This document shows, piece after piece, positions 7,458 to 50,416 of a DNA stretch of 64,000 nt (its first letter is position 1; each line of letters starts with the position of its first letter). The translations under genes were made by a program, and so were the position numbers. The stretch spans positions 1-64,000 of the forward strand of contig SMYC01000045.1 of the NCBI GenBank assembly GCA_004356105.1, written 5' to 3'. This stretch comes from Acidobacteriota bacterium. Lineage in GTDB: Bacteria > Acidobacteriota > Vicinamibacteria > Marinacidobacterales > SMYC01. The notes below the pieces were generated by a model. It did no database searches, was not told the origin of the DNA, and saw only the letters and a list, made by a program, of their open reading frames with translations.

Positions 7458-9017
7458 CTAGTTCGATTGGCGAACCGGCTGAAAGGAAAGGTCCTCGTAG
7501 TCGTAGGCCGAGTCGGCCGCGGGGGAGAAGGGTCTGAGGTCCATGGCATCGACGGAGCCGTCCGCCCCGAGCGAGAACGTGACGAACGCGTCCGCATTCG
7601 AATGATGGCCCCAACGGACGACGAACGTGTCGTGGTTCCAGTGCTCGAGGGGACCCTTGAATGAGGGCGATCTGGAAAAGCGCATCACGAGTTGGCCACT
7701 CGATGCCTCCACCGTGACATCCCCATACAGCGCATCGTTGAAGGTGCCGGCATAGCTTTTGAGACTCAGCGACGGCGAGGTCTCTTCGACGCGTGCCGCG
7801 AGAAGAGCGTCCATCCGCTCGTGAAAGCGCCGGTTCAAGATCTTGCCCGCCTCCTGGCGCGCTGCAATCCAATCGGTGGGCGGCGCGTCGCCCAGATAGG
7901 CGTCGAGGATCCAATACGTCAAGGAGGATTGAAACGACGTCTCTTGATTCGTCAAGATCACGATGCCGAGGCGCTCTCCGGGAACGAGCGTTGTCAACGA
8001 CGTCATCCCGGCCAGGCCGCCGCCGTGATAGACCATCTTTTGTCCCTTGTAGTCCTTGAGCCTCCAGCCCAGGCCGTACGCGTACCACGTCGGCTTCAGC
8101 GCCCTGAGAGGACGGAGTGGATTTCCGATACCGATGGCGATCTGCGGAGACCACATCTCCTTCGACTGCCTCTCGCTGAAGATACGCGTCTCGCCGAGCT
8201 TGCCGCGACCGAGCTGAACGAGGAGCCACTTCGAAAGCTCGGAGACGCTGGCATTGATGGCGCCGGCGGGGCCGAGCGTGTCCACGTTCTCGCTCTCGAT
8301 CGGCCGGACTTCAGAATCCATGAAGACGTGAGGCCTCGCCCAATTGCTCTCTGGCCTGCGCTCTGTAATGCTCGAATTCGCGTGCGACATCCCGAGCGGC
8401 CTGAAGATACGCTCCGCAACGAACGCGTCCCAGCTCTTTCCAGTCACCGCCGGAATGATTTGCCCAGCGACGATGAACATGACGTTGGAATAGGCGTAGC
8501 GGCTGCGAAAGCTCCGGACCGGCTTCAAGTAGCGAAGCCGTTCCATCAGTTCCTCGCGGCTATAGGTGGAGCGTAGCCAAAGCAAATCACCTCCGCCCGA
8601 GCGGAAGCCGCTACGATGCGTCACGAGATCGCGGATCGTGATCTCACGCGTGACCCAAGGATCGTAGAGTCGAAACTGCGGCAGATGATCGATGACGCGA
8701 TCGTCCCAAGAGATCTTCCCTTCATCGACGAGGATGGCGAGCGCGGCGGTCGTGAACGCTTTGGAGCACGACGCGATCGCGAAGAGGGTATTGGGGTCCA
8801 CCGGCGCGGGGCTGCCCAGCGTCCGTACGCCAAAACCCTTGGAGAAAACGACGTCACCATCTTTGACGATGGCGATGGCGGCCCCCGGAACGTCGAAGGC
8901 CTCGAGCGCGCGTTGGGCGTAGGCCTCGAGCTCGCGAACATCGAGCTCGCGAGCTAGGGCGCCGGAAGCGATGGTCCAAATAACGACGACCGCGGAAACT
9001 TTGACGAGCGAGCTCAA
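7458..9017 (-). CDS. Secreted serine hydrolase, class C beta-lactamase / PBP4-like family
   Basis: The active-site motifs are present: S-C-S-K (SxxK) in LFAIASCSKAFTTAALAILV, Y-S-N in RYAYSNVMFIVAGQ, and H-G-G in MVYHGGGLAGM. A C-terminal lipocalin-like beta domain (about 400-500) is common in this family. A signal peptide runs over the first 25 residues. The start is TTG at 9017, because GGAGG lies exactly five bases upstream; the open frame to 9071 has no such site. The substrate is unknown (beta-lactam, peptide or ester). Confidence 0.9.
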   Translation of the reverse strand: MSSLVKVSAVVVIWTIASGALARELDVRELEAYAQRALEAFDVPGAAIAIVKDGDVVFSKGFGVRTLGSPAPVDPNTLFAIASCSKAFTTAALAILVDEGKISWDDRVIDHLPQFRLYDPWVTREITIRDLVTHRSGFRSGGGDLLWLRSTYSREELMERLRYLKPVRSFRSRYAYSNVMFIVAGQIIPAVTGKSWDAFVAERIFRPLGMSHANSSITERRPESNWARPHVFMDSEVRPIESENVDTLGPAGAINASVSELSKWLLVQLGRGKLGETRIFSERQSKEMWSPQIAIGIGNPLRPLRALKPTWYAYGLGWRLKDYKGQKMVYHGGGLAGMTSLTTLVPGERLGIVILTNQETSFQSSLTYWILDAYLGDAPPTDWIAARQEAGKILNRRFHERMDALLAARVEETSPSLSLKSYAGTFNDALYGDVTVEASSGQLVMRFSRSPSFKGPLEHWNHDTFVVRWGHHSNADAFVTFSLGADGSVDAMDLRPFSPAADSAYDYEDLSFQPVRQSN

Positions 9018-9096
9018 ATGAACCTCCGCGGAGATTGTACTTCCGAAAGCCGCGCCGAAGTATATTCTCACTTATCAGATTCAGGAGGAAACGGCC

Positions 9097-9282
9097 ATGA
9101 GGACGTTGGGGCGCCTTTGGATGATACTGCTCGCTTTCGGAAGCGTGCCGGGCATCGAAGCCGAGACGCATCGCTTCCACCCCGAGGTCGGCTATCAGAC
9201 ATACAAAGTGCGTGAGCCTGTCCTTCGCGTGCGGCCAGGCGACATCGCGGAAACGAGCACGCTCTTCTCCCCGCTTTTCTGA
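9097..9282 (+). pseudogene. 5' stub of an acetamidase/formamidase-family gene
   Basis: A strong AGGAGG site precedes the ATG. A signal peptide is followed by HRFHPEVGYQTYKVREPVLR and V-R-P-G-D-I-A-E-T-S-T, the N-terminal pattern of the FmdA/AmdA family. The frame stops after 61 residues where the family continues for about 300. The following 370 bases are repeats and no further amidase sequence is seen, so only the start of the gene survives. Confidence 0.65.
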
Positions 9283-9648
9283 CTAAACACTAGCCAGGTA
9301 ACCTTGAAAGCGTTTGAACCGGTAGAGGCGCAGAGGACGTAGAGGAAAATCCGGGATTTCTTCTTCTCCGCGTACTCTGCGCCTCTGCGGTGAGATTGTC
9401 TTGCTCTAGATCTAGAACTAGATCTAGCCAGGTAAACCTGAAAGCGTTCTAAATCCACACCACACAGCTGACTCTCATCCCCACATCCCCTTACCTTTAC
9501 AAACGCCGCTAAAAGCAAGGAGAGGTGGGGATGGGAGGGGATGTGGGGATAAGAAAGAATTTGCTTCAGAACGTGGTACAAAATCCTCGGTTCTGACCGG
9601 TTAGAGGCTAAGACGCGAACAAAATCCTCGCTTCTGACGGGTTCGAGC
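9283..9648. repeat. Repeat-rich intergenic region
   Basis: No gene is seen. It contains: (i) two copies of a ~28-bp sequence TAGCCAGGTAA-CTGAAAGCGTT at 9291 and 9425; (ii) an imperfect inverted repeat built on GCGCAGAGG...CTCTGCGCCTCTGCGG (about 9330-9390), a palindromic motif widespread in bacterial genomes; (iii) CTAGATCTAG palindromes at 9405-9427; (iv) a long hairpin ATCCCCACATCCCCT / AGGGGATGTGGGGAT (about 9478-9551); (v) two near-identical ~45-bp copies carrying AAAATCCTCG-TTCTGAC just after the Omp85 stop. Confidence 0.75.
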
Positions 9649-11217
9649 CTAGAAGCCGATGCGGGAGCCCGCCGATAGGAGCCAGCGGCTCCGGCCGTCG
9701 ATCGGGTCGAGCGCGTAAGCGAAATCGATGCGGATGCCCGGTGTCGATGCGGAGACACGGTTCGCGCCCAGCAACAAGCTCAGGCCGATATCCGAGTGCA
9801 TGTCTGAAAGGCGCATCGGCTGGCCGCGAGGCCAGGCGAAGCCGGAATCGAAAAAGCCGGCGATGCCGACCGATACGAGTTGGCCGATGTTATCCGTGAG
9901 GAACCAACGGCCTTCCAAACTGATTAGCAACGAGCGATTGCCGTTGAACTGACGGACGGGGTAGCCGCGAAGACCACTTTCCGCCCCGAGCCGAAACTGC
10001 ACTTCTGGATCGAGCTCTGTCCCATAGAGAAAGTCGGCCTTGGCGAGAATCAGCTTGCGGAGAGACAGCTTTTGCACAACGTTGGCGCGAGCGTGGAGAA
10101 TCCCGTTCTCGATCCGGTCGTTTCGATAGCGCGCCCGCCAGGAAATGTCTCCGAGAACGAAGCCAACCCCAGGAAGTTTCAGCCCTCGTCGCTCGCCGAG
10201 AAAGAAGGAATAGGACGTCAGATCCTCGCCCCCGAGCGCGGGGGTCGAGATCCCGAAAAAGGCGGAGGCCACGTTCCCGAGATTGAAATCTTCGATCCGC
10301 TCGAACTGGTGAATATGGGTGAGCTTCAGGAAACGGTGAACGACGCTGCTTACGCCGACCTGCAGGAGGCCGAAGCGCCGGACGTTCTCGCCTTCGGCGA
10401 TGTCGTCCTCGGAGCTCACATAGGCGAGATGAAGCCGCACGGCATTCGTCGGGTTGCGCTTTAGCGCGCGGGCGGCATGAAACTCGCCTCGTCGACTGTA
10501 ATGTCTAAGCTGAGCGATACGCTCGCCATCCTGGAATAGTGGGTCGAGGCGATCGAAGTCCTCGAACGCAGCGTGGAAGCTCCAAAGCGTGCCGATCGAA
10601 AAGAACGGACGGGTCGCGGAGAGGTTGACGCGATGCCCGTCGCTAGCGCTCGATAGCAACACGCGGCTGGTGACACGCGAGCCGAAGGTTCGAGGATCGC
10701 GATAGAACACGAAAGTCTTGTCGCGATCCAGACCGGAGTCATACAGTAGCCGGAGCTGCTTTCCAAGGCCGAACAAGTTGGTCTCGGACGCGCCCGCTGC
10801 CCACACCCACTCGTTCCCCACTTTGGCTACACGAAACTCTGGTAGCGTCGACCATGCATCGGAGGTGGTGACGCGCAAAAGGACGCGTCCGTCCGCCAAG
10901 GGAATCGATTCGATTTCTGCTCGTCGCAAGAAAGGCAAAGCGCGCAGGTTTCGCTCGGTTTGAGCGACCGCTTCCATGTCGAGGGAGTCCCCGACCGCGA
11001 AGAGAAGCTCCTGACGGATGATGCTTTCGCGGGTCTTGATATGCAGCCGGTTGGCCGCCCGATATGGCCACACGTCGCTTGTGCGGCCGTTGTCCTCGAA
11101 CACGTCCTCGACATAGATTTCGATGGTCGCGATGGTCGGGGTCGGTGCTTCGTCTCGTGCTTGGGACCCCGCACAAAGGAGAAGGGATAGAACAATTAAT
11201 CGGAAGACGCGGAGCAT
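9649..11217 (-). CDS. Omp85/BamA-TamA-like outer-membrane protein
   Basis: A signal peptide ([14 protein letters not shown]) is followed by one or two POTRA-like segments (about 25-130: [36 protein letters not shown]). A 16-stranded-type barrel region full of alternating aromatic strands extends to a C-terminal Phe (SAGSRIGF). The motif G-x-R-G-Y ([16 protein letters not shown]) is the Omp85 surface-antigen signature. At 522 residues it is shorter than BamA and closer to TamA/TpsB or the single-POTRA patatin-associated type. No partner protein is next to it. A duplicated ~45-bp sequence follows the stop codon. Confidence 0.85.
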
Positions 11218-45764: not shown

Positions 45765-46007
45765 ATGTCGAGAAACGTTCAGGTTCTTCGCCAGTGGCTC
45801 CTTTTCCAGAAGCTCGAGCGCGCGAGGGGCGCGACGCTCGAAGAGCTCGTTGGAGGCCTGCCCTCGGACTACGCGTGCCATCCGCGCACCGTCCGCCGCG
45901 ACCTCGAGGTGCTCGAGACCAACTTTCCCGTGATCACCGACCGAAGAGACGGCAAAACGATCTGGCGTCTCATGAACAGCACGTTTGGATTTCGAGATCG
46001 CTGTTGA
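45765..46007 (+). pseudogene. N-terminal stub of a DeoR/WYL-type regulator
   Basis: NVQVLRQWLLFQKLERARGA and YACHPRTVRRDLEVLETNFP, then VITDRRDGKTIWRLM, form the DNA-binding half of a WYL-domain regulator. The frame ends after 80 residues and no WYL domain follows. WYL regulators often accompany CRISPR-Cas loci, and this one lies in the same block as the cas remnants. Confidence 0.65.
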
Positions 46008-46166
46008 AGGCCCCATCGTCCTCGGCCGGAGCCGCCACCTTGGGGGAGGGTTCTTTGCGCGGGCGGGGAGCGCCTCGTCATGAAGGTGCGGACGATTCGG
46101 CGTCTACCCCTTGGAGATAGATCTAATTGTGTCTTCCCCCGGCTGAACGTTGCCTAGCCCGTCGGG

Positions 46167-47203
46167 TTGCTCGAAGGGCGGGCTGCGGCCCGGGCGATGC
46201 GCGATCGTCTCCCGCCGGGGTGGTCCGTTGAACTCCGCTCGGAGAGCGGCGAGCCCGTCCTGTCACTGCAGGCACCTGACGGGCGCGCGGCGGAGCTGGC
46301 CGTGGTCGCGCGGCGACGCGTATTGCCGAGGGACGTTCCGAACCTGCTTCGGCAGGCCACAGGTCGCGCACAGCGTCTTCTGCTCGTCGGGCCCTTTCTC
46401 AGCCCTAGGTCTCGCGATTTGCTCATCGAGGCTAACGCGAGCTACGCGGACGCCACCGGAAACCTTAGGGTCGTGATCGATGAGCCAGCCGTTTTCCTGG
46501 AGGCGCGCGGAGCCGAGCGCGATCCCGACCGGTAGCCCCGAGCACTTCGAAGCCTGAAGGGGGCGATCGCCGGTCGCGTCGTGCGCGCGCTATGCGACTT
46601 CGTTCCGCCTTATGGCGTGCGCACGCTCGCAGAGATCTCCCCCACCCCGCTCGGGACGGTGTCACGCGTGGTGAGCTTCCTTGAAGATTGAAGAGGAAGC
46701 GCTGATTACCCGTGACGACAAGAAGCAGATCCTTTCCGTCGACTGGGCTCCTCTCATCGCCCGGTGGGTCCGGGATTACAGCGTGACGCGATCCAACGTC
46801 CTGCGTTCGTACATCGAGCCGCGCGGCCTCGCCGCTCTGGGTCTAAAGATCAGCAAGCTGCAACGATACGCAGTTACGGGCTCGTTGGCGGCGCCCGGAA
46901 CAGCCCCCGCGAGACTCGCCATGTTCTACGTGGATGACACGGTCTGCCGCCGAGACCCTGGAGCTCCTCCCGACCGAAGCGGGAACCAATGTCTGGCTGC
47001 TCGAGCCATTCGACGAGGTCGTGTTCGATCGAACCGAGTCGCGACCGTTCGTGCTGTCTCCGGAGGAGACCTCCGTGGTCGTAGCGGCGCCGAGCCAAGT
47101 CGTGGCGGACTTGCTGACGAGCCCGGGTCGAGCTCCGCAAGAAGGCGAAGCGCTCCTCGAGAAGATGAAAGGAACCGAGGATGCCTGGCGCCGCAAAGTA
47201 TGA
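46167..47203 (+). pseudogene. Winged-helix DNA-binding protein (AbiEi-like partner), several frameshifts
   Basis: Coherent pieces lie in successive frames. They are LPPGWSVELRSESGEPVLSL and RLLLVGPFLSPRSRDLL (46167-46535); RVVRALCDFVPPYGVRTLAE, a winged helix (about 46553-46690); DKKQILSVDWAPLIARWVRD (46681-46940); and NVWLLEPFDEVVFDRTESRP (46934-47203). Joined, they make one protein of about 340 residues. Such proteins pair with nucleotidyltransferases in AbiE-like modules. At least three frameshifts make it inactive, unless the sequence is wrong. It overlaps the next gene by 23 bases. Confidence 0.6.
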
Positions 47204-47990
47204 ACCCGAGTACGTAGCAGCGCGACGAGTCCTACTCGACGTTCTCGAGGCCCTGAACGCACACCGGAAGGCGCTGGTTCTCGTTGGTGCACAAGCCATC
47301 TACCTTCACGTGGGGGAAGGTGACCTCGCGGTCTCGCCCTACACGACAGACGGAGACCTCGTTATCGACCCGCGTAAGCTCGACGACGAGCCGGCCACTC
47401 GCCGAAACCCTCGAAGCTGTCGGGTTCGAGCTCGCTGTTCGTCCGGGAGGCTGGACGATGGACGCGGTACAAATCGATCTCATGGTCCCCGCGTCCATGG
47501 GCGGTTCAGGACGCCGAGGAGCTCGACTCGGGGTGCACGGAAACGATGTGGCGCGCAAAGCGTCTGGCCTGGAAGGAGCCGTGGTCGACTATGGGCCCCT
47601 TCGCGTTGCAGCACTTGACCCAACGGACGAGCGCGCCTTCGTCGTGAACGTCGCCGGTGTTGCCGCACTTCTGGTCGCCAAACTACACAAAGTTGACGAG
47701 CGCAAGAACGAGGCCGCGCGACGACAGGACAAAGATGGGCTCGACGTTTGCGGCTGCTTCGTTTCGCGGAAACTGCCCATCTCGCGACGACTCTGACGAA
47801 GCTCGCCGAGCATCCCATCGCGGGTGAAGTGACACGCGAGGCACGGGGCTTCCTGGGGGAGCTCTTTTCGGAGCGCGACGCCGCGGGTGCGGCGATGGCT
47901 GTTCGTGCCAGCGTTGGCCTCGAGGATGAGCTCGTCATCGCCATCTCTTGCGAGACGCTCGCCCGTCGGCTCCTTGCTGCCTGGAAGTAA
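47181..47990 (+). pseudogene. Nucleotidyltransferase (AbiEii-like), frameshifted
   Basis: Frame one gives HRKALVLVGAQAIYLHVGEG and YTTDGDLVIDPRKL, a nucleotidyltransferase turn with the D-x-D pair. The continuation LAETLEAVGFELAVRPGGWT and MDAVQIDLMVPASMGG lies in the next frame from about 47395, followed by VAALLVAKLHKVDERKN. The C-terminal part (AETAHLATTLTKLAEHPIAG) is shifted again near 47770. In full it would be a protein of about 265 residues and the second gene of the module. Confidence 0.65.
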
Positions 47991-48160: not shown

Positions 48161-48619
48161 ATGAGCCAATCAAAAGACAGCGTCGATGATGCGATGGCGG
48201 GAATTCTCCCCTCCGAATGTTGAACGAGTACACCTAATGTCCCCGCCTCTTTCATCTGATGCACGTGGAGGGGAGATGAGAGGACAACCATCGTCCTCGG
48301 TCACGGGCGGCCCTCTCTCGCGCTCGATCTCATGGAGCCGTTTCGTCCTCTCATCGTGGACTCGGCCGTCTTGACCGCGGTCAACACGGGAATGGTCAAA
48401 GCCAGAGATTTCACGAGGAGCCATGCAAGGTGCATGCTCAATGCCGCCGCACGCAAGGCACTCATTCGCGCCTACGAGTCACGAATGGACCAGCTCGTAA
48501 CGCACCCACTGTTCGAGTACCGCTGTTCCTGGCGAAGCATGATCCGCATCCAGGCGCGCCTTGTTTCGCGATGGCTCCGCGGCGGCGTGCCCAGATATGA
48601 GAACATCGTAAACCGCTGA
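48161..48619 (+). pseudogene. Collapsed cas4-cas1 fusion gene (type I-G/I-U-like)
   Basis: From ATG 48161 (MSQSKDSVDDAMAGILPS), one frameshift leads to RMLNEYT, a stop, then CPRLFHLMHVEGR and another stop. This is the Cas4 N-terminal block M-L-N-E-Y-x-Y-C-P-R-L with its Tyr codon turned into TAA. About 60 bases later the last third of Cas1 begins (GRPSLALDLMEPFRPLIVDS, then AVLTAVNTGMVKARDF and YESRMDQLVTHPLFEYR). It ends at 48619. Roughly 400 residues between the two are missing. Cas4-Cas1 fusions are characteristic of type I-G (formerly I-U). Confidence 0.78.
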
Positions 48620-48631
48620 CGGTGAACCGAG

Positions 48632-48922
48632 ATGAACAGAAAACGCTTTCTGGTCACCTATGACGTCTCGGACGATAAACGGAGAACACAGATATTCAAG
48701 ACACTCTACGCCTACGGCGATCACGCACAGTACAGCGTGTTCTTCTGCGAGCTGAACGCTCGCGAGTACGCCGAGCTTTGTGGCAGGCTCCGCCGATCGC
48801 TCCACCACAAGGAGGACCAGATATTGATCCTCGATTTGGGTTCGGTTGCCAATCCACTGGATGCCGGCCTTCAGTGTCTCGGGCGACCCTATCGTCCAGC
48901 CACGACCGTTCTCGTAGTATGA
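48632..48922 (+). CDS. cas2: CRISPR-associated endonuclease Cas2
   Basis: 96 residues, full length for Cas2. The N-terminal strand RKRFLVTYDVSDDKRRTQIF carries the conserved Asp, AYGDHAQYSVFFCELNAREY follows, and HHKEDQILILDLGSVANP forms the second half of the ferredoxin-like fold. The sequence resembles the Cas2 that follows Cas4-Cas1 fusions. It lies 12 bases after the cas1 stop. It is apparently intact although its partner is destroyed. Confidence 0.92.
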   Translation: MNRKRFLVTYDVSDDKRRTQIFKTLYAYGDHAQYSVFFCELNAREYAELCGRLRRSLHHKEDQILILDLGSVANPLDAGLQCLGRPYRPATTVLVV

Positions 48923-49058
48923 CCCGCGAGCGGCGGTGTAATGAGTGAACCCTGGGGATCGCTCGTGGTCTTTGAAAACTGGACGGTTACACCCGCCTCT
49001 CGGGGTTGTCGAGGGCAGGAATCGAAAGCCCATTCGAGGTACCGCTCGAAACAGGGTA

Positions 49059-49064
49059 TATAAT
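49059..49064 (+). promoter_or_regulatory. TATAAT box in the CRISPR leader
   Basis: A consensus TATAAT lies in the 174-base segment between cas2 and the first repeat, 33 bases before the repeat. A matching -35 element is not clear. Confidence 0.4.
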
Positions 49065-49096
49065 GCTTTGTTCTGTCAAGACTTAGACTTGGCGCT

Positions 49097-49204
49097 GTTT
49101 CCGCGTTCGAGAGAACGCGGCCCCATTGAAGCTGGACGAAAGCGTAATGACACGCTGCTGCGTCAGCAAGTTCCGCGTTCGAGAGAACGCGGCCCCATTG
49201 AAGC
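49097..49204 (+). CRISPR. Minimal CRISPR array: two 36-bp repeats and one 36-bp spacer
   Basis: Repeat 1 is 49097-49132 and repeat 2 is 49169-49204. Their last 34 bases are identical and end in CCCCATTGAAGC, and the first two bases differ. Each repeat holds a perfect stem CCGCGTTC / GAACGCGG around GAGA. The spacer is 49133-49168. The repeat end and hairpin suit subtype I-G/I-U-like systems, in line with the cas4-cas1 relic. After repeat 2 only 16 bases remain before the duplicated flank begins at 49221, so the array is cut in its second spacer. Confidence 0.85.
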
Positions 49205-49220: not shown

Positions 49221-49370
49221 GCGGCCCGACCTCGTGCTCACCGGGAAACGATACACCAAACCATTGGCGTTACGATCCCTTGGCCGGCAAGGTTCTCGAG
49301 CTGGTCACCAGCCGTCGAGGAGCCCGCCGTCGAACCACTCCCACAAAATGTAGAGAAAAAGTTGGACCGG
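49221..49370. repeat. Copy B of the ~150-bp duplication
   Basis: Matches 45541-45690. It contains the first ~14 codons of a livG copy, running straight into the CRISPR remnant, and the true 3' end of the cytochrome c gene with its stop at 49305. Confidence 0.9.
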
Positions 49371-50416
49371 TCGGGAGCTATCGTTTACGGGAACGAGTAG
49401 ACCCACGTTGGCGAGGACATGTTGACGTACGTTGAGAGAGAGTTGGAGTTGAGGGACGAGATCCCATTCCGTACCGCCATCTTCGGCTCGTCCAATGATC
49501 TCCACCATCGGAGAGAAACTCCGCCCCCAGGTGTTGGCGGTGAACGTCCGCCCGAAGGCCGCCGTCCAGAAAATCTCTTGCTCGACTCGGTCACGATCGC
49601 TCGGTAGCTCGATTCCAGCTTGCAAATGGACGAAAGCATCGCCAGGCAGCAGCTGACCAAAGGAGACGGACGGCTCGAAAACAAAGACGCCTTTTCCTTG
49701 GCCGTTTCGTTCGCTCCCGTCGGGACGGCGACTTCGGCGTTCAAGCTCAGAATATTGCCGCGATCCAATCGATGATAGACGGTGCTCTTAATGCCCAGCG
49801 TGACGTCGCCGATCCCTCCCGCCCAGGGATCCCCGCTCGTGCTTTGCCCCGCGCCGAACGGGACCGCGAGCTCCCATTGGTAGCGCGCGCCGAAGCGACG
49901 CTCGTATAGAAGCTCGTTCGTGAGCTCACCCTTTCCTTCCGTGGCTACCCCGACCGTCCAAATGAGCTCGTCTTCTGGATAGGCCTTTTCCGTGAACATG
50001 GGACGCGGAAAATTGAGCTCCCCACTCGGCCAGGCGTCTTCCGCGCAGAATGTGCGAATGAAGTCCACGATCTTTTGTAACTGCTCGATGTCGAACGCCT
50101 CGCCGAAGGCGGGCATGCTCGCATCGAATCCCCGAACCGGCCCTCCCTGGTGGGAGACGGCAATCCAGTCGAAGTCAGGCTCCCGCGTCGCGAAACTGCA
50201 GTCGGCGAAATCAGGAAGGGGGACGTCGAACGCGACTCGATCGAGCGGAACACCTGCGCCGGTCTCACCGTGACACTGGGCGCAACCGATTCGGTACAGG
50301 CCTTCGCCCGTCGTGGGAAGCTGCGAGCCGTTCACGGCGAGCGAAGAAAGAAGCACGAACAGGATGGCGTAAGCGGCTATGCAACGCATGAATACGCGGA
50401 ACACGGTATCACGCAC
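49305..50416 (-). pseudogene. Cytochrome c / outer-membrane-type protein gene with one frameshift
   Basis: A signal peptide is followed by a class I cytochrome c domain: heme motif CAQCH in YRIGCAQCHGETGAGVPLDR and axial Met in GFDASMPAFGEAF. A beta-rich region follows (ELIWTVGVATEGKGELTNEL, YQWELAVPFGAGQ). Near 49720 the frame shifts: GKGVFVFEPSVSFGQLLPGD and VEQEIFWTAAFGRTFTAN continue in the next frame to LYILWEWFDGGLLDGW and a stop. It could be a mutation or a sequence error. It may be an outer-membrane component receiving electrons or metals. Confidence 0.7.

Follow-up and report, generated by a model that had tools for sequence, protein, structure and literature searches.

Results

Architecture of the locus

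Positions 48161-49204 of the window, by which we mean the whole 64,000-nucleotide stretch analysed here, carry what is left of a CRISPR locus; direct reading of the sequence confirms the start of a cas4-cas1 fusion gene, a deletion, the end of cas1, a cas2 gene, a leader and an array of two repeats (Table 1). The locus lies on contig C198 of a metagenome bin of 6.77 Mb in 335 contigs, which is 93% complete.

Table 1. Coordinates of the CRISPR remnants and of the DNA between them.
Feature	Position	Strand	Details and evidence
csb2 3' end (Cas5-Cas6 fusion, type I-G)	45979..46059	+	about 26 codons, LDFEIAVEGPIVLGRSRHLGGGFFAR...; TIGR02165, relatives
Region between csb2 tail and cas4	46150..47990	+	three-frame reading
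5' remnant of cas4-cas1 fusion gene	48161..48291	+	one-base frameshift before 48217, TAA at conserved Tyr, TGA at conserved Trp/Phe
Deletion junction	48286..48292	+	Cas4 ...EDN-H joined to Cas1 H-RPR-HGRP; breakpoint inferred from relatives L010, L011, L013, L014 and L015
Cas1 C-terminus	48302..48619	+	105 codons without stop (48302-48616), then TGA; NF049935 and 7mi4 matches
cas2 (type I-G Cas2g), intact	48632..48922	+	96 aa; PF09827, PADLOC Cas2g
CRISPR leader	48923..49096	+	alignment of five loci
CRISPR repeat 1	49097..49132	+	36 bp, GTTTCCGCGTTCGAGAGAACGCGGCCCCATTGAAGC; repeat search, fold, comparison with relatives
Single spacer	49133..49168	+	36 bp; no protospacer found
CRISPR repeat 2	49169..49204	+	36 bp; first two bases AG for GT, other 34 bp same as repeat 1

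The cas4-cas1 remnant was compared with its relatives by reading frame and by tblastn. Translation from the ATG at 48161 gives the Cas4 start, MSQSKDSVDDAMAGILPSE, up to a one-base frameshift, and the frame from 48217 continues as MLNEYT-stop-CPRLFHLMHVEGR-stop-EDNH, for which the counterpart in the relative L013 is MLNEYVYCPRLFHLMHVEGRFEDN. The in-frame stops are a TAA in place of the conserved Tyr and a TGA in place of Trp (Phe in L013); the second match of the NF049935 (cas4g_cas1g) profile, at 48208-48303 (profile positions 3-34), contains one TGA and one TAA. The sequence ...EDNH then runs straight into Cas1 RPR-HGRPSLALDLMEPF. In intact relatives EDN and HGRP lie 443-459 residues apart, and the absence of these residues here corresponds to the loss of about 1.3 kb. 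The junction codon CAT (His) can be assigned to either side, and there is one extra base just 3' of it.

The Cas1 C-terminus corresponds to positions 442-546 of the 546 in NF049935 (E = 3e-43), and the solved structure that it matches best is that of the Cas4/1 fusion 7mi4, at about residues 455-559 of 559. Both ends of the fusion gene match NF049935 in the correct order and better than they match other Cas1 subtypes, as parts of a broken gene. The catalytic glutamate of the M. barkeri Cas4/1 protein is E375 (PMC10274657); the remnant lacks the Cas1 N-terminal domain and, to judge from its position, this residue as well, and thus cannot act as an integrase. Downstream, the cas2 product matches PF09827 (E = 9e-19) and has Cas2g as its top PADLOC model (E = 2e-26); the frame is open and of normal length, and the YDVSDDKRR motif is kept. 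The first-pass annotation of this DNA, made from the sequence alone, had proposed that most of Cas4-Cas1 is deleted, that the Cas1 C-terminus is left and that cas2 is intact, all of which these matches and the gap relative to relatives bear out. Its stop at the Cas4 Tyr is also real, although not the only lesion of the Cas4 start block, where the second stop and the frameshift accompany it.

The leader contains a block common to its relatives, CGAGCGG..GTGGT..GAACCC.GGGG..CGTGGTCTTTGA, in the five-locus alignment. It is followed by two repeats with identical 34-bp cores (49099-49132 and 49171-49204) and a predicted hairpin of 8 bp (-14.2 kcal/mol, z = -3.0), so that the repeat length and strong hairpin reported earlier hold, while the match between the two copies extends over 34 rather than 36 bp. 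Repeats of 36 bp ending in ATTGAAGC occur in 60 of 80 related I-G-type loci, the repeat of L010 being GTTTCCACGCTCTACCGAGCGTGGCCCCATTGAAGC; the array therefore follows a known CRISPR repeat plan, where a repeat unrelated to any other would have spoken against the fossil. The search for other arrays with this repeat, which the first-pass annotation had suggested, found no further copy in the genome at up to three mismatches, nor did a reversed control, and no viral contig carries an exact copy of the repeat. Another of its suggestions, a search of the spacer against phages and plasmids, here extended to viral contigs, gave chance-level matches only: the best extension was 25/36 among contigs preselected for a 17-base match, compared with 20-22/36 for shuffled spacers without such preselection.

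The csb2 tail and the DNA that separates it from cas4

A TIGR02165 search of the whole genome found csb2 in a single place, 45958-46059 (E = 8.4e-5, profile positions 457-490 of 492, one TGA on the 5' side), a tail of about 26-34 codons that falls below the cut-off. Its frame shares about 50% identity with the end of csb2 in many relatives, RLIFDVPVRGPICIGHSSHFGMGLF of L010 among them, and its strand and order relative to cas4-cas1 are those of L010. The tail is the only remnant of an effector gene, so the earlier statement that effector genes are absent was nearly right, and its presence upstream makes the fossil longer than had been described. The stated parts of the fossil stand; the list of lesions was too short, this upstream remnant was missed, and the whole is interrupted by 2.1 kb of other genes.

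The csb2 gene of L010 is followed at once by cas4-cas1, whereas here about 2.1 kb lies between them. This DNA holds a damaged HTH-type regulator-like gene spread over three frames (46150-47203) and a damaged nucleotidyltransferase-like gene spread over two (47181-47990). Pfam and PADLOC gave no match for the pieces of either, and the two names therefore come from reading the translations; the genes were probably inserted into the cas operon. The pair, both members of which are frameshifted, is reminiscent of a toxin-antitoxin pair.

Fused to the csb2 tail at its 5' end is a truncated N-terminus of an HTH/WYL-type regulator (45765-46007). We considered this fragment as the former start of the cas operon and found no support for the idea, as no such gene occurs near the cas genes of relatives; its sole match among the genomes of six relatives, a frame of 335 aa in L115, has no cas genes near it in the 3.2 kb covered. 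On the other side, a gene for a cytochrome c domain protein adjoins the CRISPR remnant on the minus strand (49305-50416) and is also damaged, its frame shifting near 49.7 kb. A syntenic empty site was sought through the right-hand neighbour gene, for which the search found no homologue in the order.

Cas genes missing from the genome

The bin contains one Cas1, represented by the C-terminal 105 residues alone, and one Cas2, at this locus. A complete Cas1 elsewhere, which the first-pass annotation had named as grounds for abandoning its view, was not found in the bin, and the reading as a fossil stands. Nor did the search for a complete I-G locus elsewhere in the genome yield Csx17, Csb1 or Cas3g above the cut-off: the signature effector Csx17/Cas8g and Csb1/Cas7g have no match in the bin, and Cas3g only weak helicase and HD cross-matches below the cut-off, while the same searches detect all three genes in G005, a genome of the same order. 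Csm1 and any csb2 beyond the tail are likewise absent from the bin. Immediately upstream of cas4, the place where effector genes should be found, there is now other DNA, and by the layout of L010 the missing cas genes (cas3, csx17, csb1 and most of csb2) amount to 7.9 kb or more. With the bin 93% complete and in 335 contigs, an unlinked second system could be missing from the data. G005 itself has I-G-type cas3 and csb1 at two distinct loci, on contigs C3 and C27, and csx17 at only one of them.

Relatives and subtype

Relatives were retrieved with the Cas1 remnant as query. The nearest intact ones are in Planctomycetota/Phycisphaerae and agree in subtype and gene order; in the Cas1 tree this locus groups with a Planctomycetota sequence (support 98/83). 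The nearest relative, L010 (Planctomycetota MAG USOA134), has a full I-G operon, and the same gene set is found in 21 of the 80 loci, counted where contigs and flanks reach far enough. The locus shares with L010 a Cas4-Cas1 fusion followed by cas2, the leader, 36-bp hairpin repeats ending in CCCCATTGAAGC and an upstream csb2, and its Cas1 C-terminus is 77% identical. It differs from type I-G (formerly I-U) as represented by L010 and 7mi4 in that it has lost cas3, csx17, csb1 and the greater part of csb2, its cas4-cas1 is broken and shortened, its array has two repeats, and other genes lie between csb2 and cas4. The proposal of a CRISPR fossil of type I-G/I-U is thereby upheld, with Cas4g/Cas1g and Cas2g as the best models and a leader and repeat of I-G type.

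Among the relatives, L015 has an intact I-G-like Cas4-Cas1 fusion (8543-10600), and the frame after it, in place of cas2, begins MVIIGDLSGIQDFLFD and resembles a type III Cas10; this may be an I-G adaptation gene beside a type III system.

Conservation of cas2 and of the Cas1 remnant

The dN of the Cas1 remnant relative to L010 is 0.18, the same as between L010 and L012, whose genes are functional; for cas2 the corresponding values are 0.45 and 0.46. In both genes, changes at otherwise invariant sites do not exceed what functional genes show. In a relative-rate comparison with L010 the counts are 12:9 (Cas1) and 20:22 (cas2), and the two genes do not differ (Fisher p = 0.6), the relatives being too distant for a decisive test and, with dS saturated, for dating the loss. 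The end branch of this locus in the Cas1 tree is 0.57, against 0.13 for its sister L010; this is a weak hint of some relaxation in Cas1, which the relative-rate counts do not confirm. In the comparison of cas2 substitution rates that had been suggested, then, neither cas2 nor the Cas1 remnant is accelerated relative to the nearest relative, and the two do not differ from each other, in a test of low power because that relative is distant.

Selection might have kept cas2 after the loss of Cas1 and the effectors, for a role outside adaptation such as that of a stand-alone VapD-like nuclease or toxin. The open frame and retained motif would fit such a role, the literature leaves Cas2 functions beyond adaptation possible (PMC6452270), and a passage of PMC8616872 cites Legionella cas2 as an example. 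Yet the disabled Cas1 remnant is equally conserved, which argues that the conservation of cas2 is inherited and not specific to it. Within the host's order, cas2 is present only in G005, G007 and this genome; G005 and G007 both have cas1, and cas2 without cas1 is seen in no further genome of the order. No relative of this cas2 was found in viral contigs, and the literature searched did not use orphan, solo, isolated or standalone cas2 as a phrase. We consider retention by selection very unlikely. Since a Cas1 remnant known to be dead is preserved equally well, recent loss explains the survival of cas2 with no need for a special role; most likely the gene has simply not yet decayed, and the low-power rate test, which gives no pointer to a separate role, fits this.

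Discussion

Our analysis supports the view that 48161-49204 is a destroyed bacterial CRISPR immune system of an ordinary kind, type I-G by descent. The lesions, the missing genes and the subtype are there to be read in the DNA, and we hold it highly probable that this is a recently broken type I-G locus of Planctomycetota-like ancestry that was destroyed in this lineage. Like degenerate CRISPR loci and orphan arrays it has a short array without working cas machinery; unlike them it still has cas2 intact, with pieces of cas4, cas1 and csb2 that can be read in place, and for this reason we regard its decay as caught at an early stage.

The genome is a metagenome bin, and bins are imperfect, so that the real locus might be intact and its deletion, stops and frameshifts errors of assembly or consensus. 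Many Cas4 lesions do lie within a few bases, and the neighbouring regulator, nucleotidyltransferase and cytochrome c genes are frameshifted too. However, frames are long and clean across most of the remaining window, and the remnants lie deep within a single long contig, flanked on either side by other genes. Moreover, a 1.3-kb deletion, a csb2 cut to its tail, stops of substitution type and the missing cas3, csx17 and csb1 are not consensus slips, and an artefact of this kind is accordingly very unlikely. That the array and leftover genes still work with effectors in trans, as the identical repeat cores, good fold and preserved leader might suggest, is extremely unlikely given a genome with no I-G effector or Csm1, a csb2 reduced to its tail and a spacer without a detectable protospacer.

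For the recently broken I-G locus, we infer the following order of events, together with its recency and the absence of function, from the remnants. The ancestral locus would have comprised cas3, csx17, csb1, csb2, cas4-cas1, cas2 and an array. One loss would have removed cas3, csx17, csb1 and nearly all of csb2, and another the missing part of cas4-cas1; what was left of cas4 was broken by point stops and single-base frameshifts. Other genes, now damaged in turn, would have come to lie between csb2 and cas4, and the array would have been reduced to two repeats. With no Cas1 integrase, Cas6 activity or effector, the locus would support no spacer acquisition, crRNA maturation or interference. 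The intact cas2 would reflect a loss that is recent when measured by protein divergence, as a gene of 96 codons often escapes a lethal change by chance. Counting against this account, there are two stops among 25 Cas4 codons that are otherwise well preserved, which is more than expected, the share of substitutions that create a stop in those codons being about 5%.

The finding leaves the understanding of type I-G systems unchanged, as it concerns the ordinary decay of a known system. It provides one more instance of how CRISPR loci vanish, with the effectors deleted, the adaptation genes broken and a leader and stub array left behind, at a stage early enough for the lesions to be listed singly.
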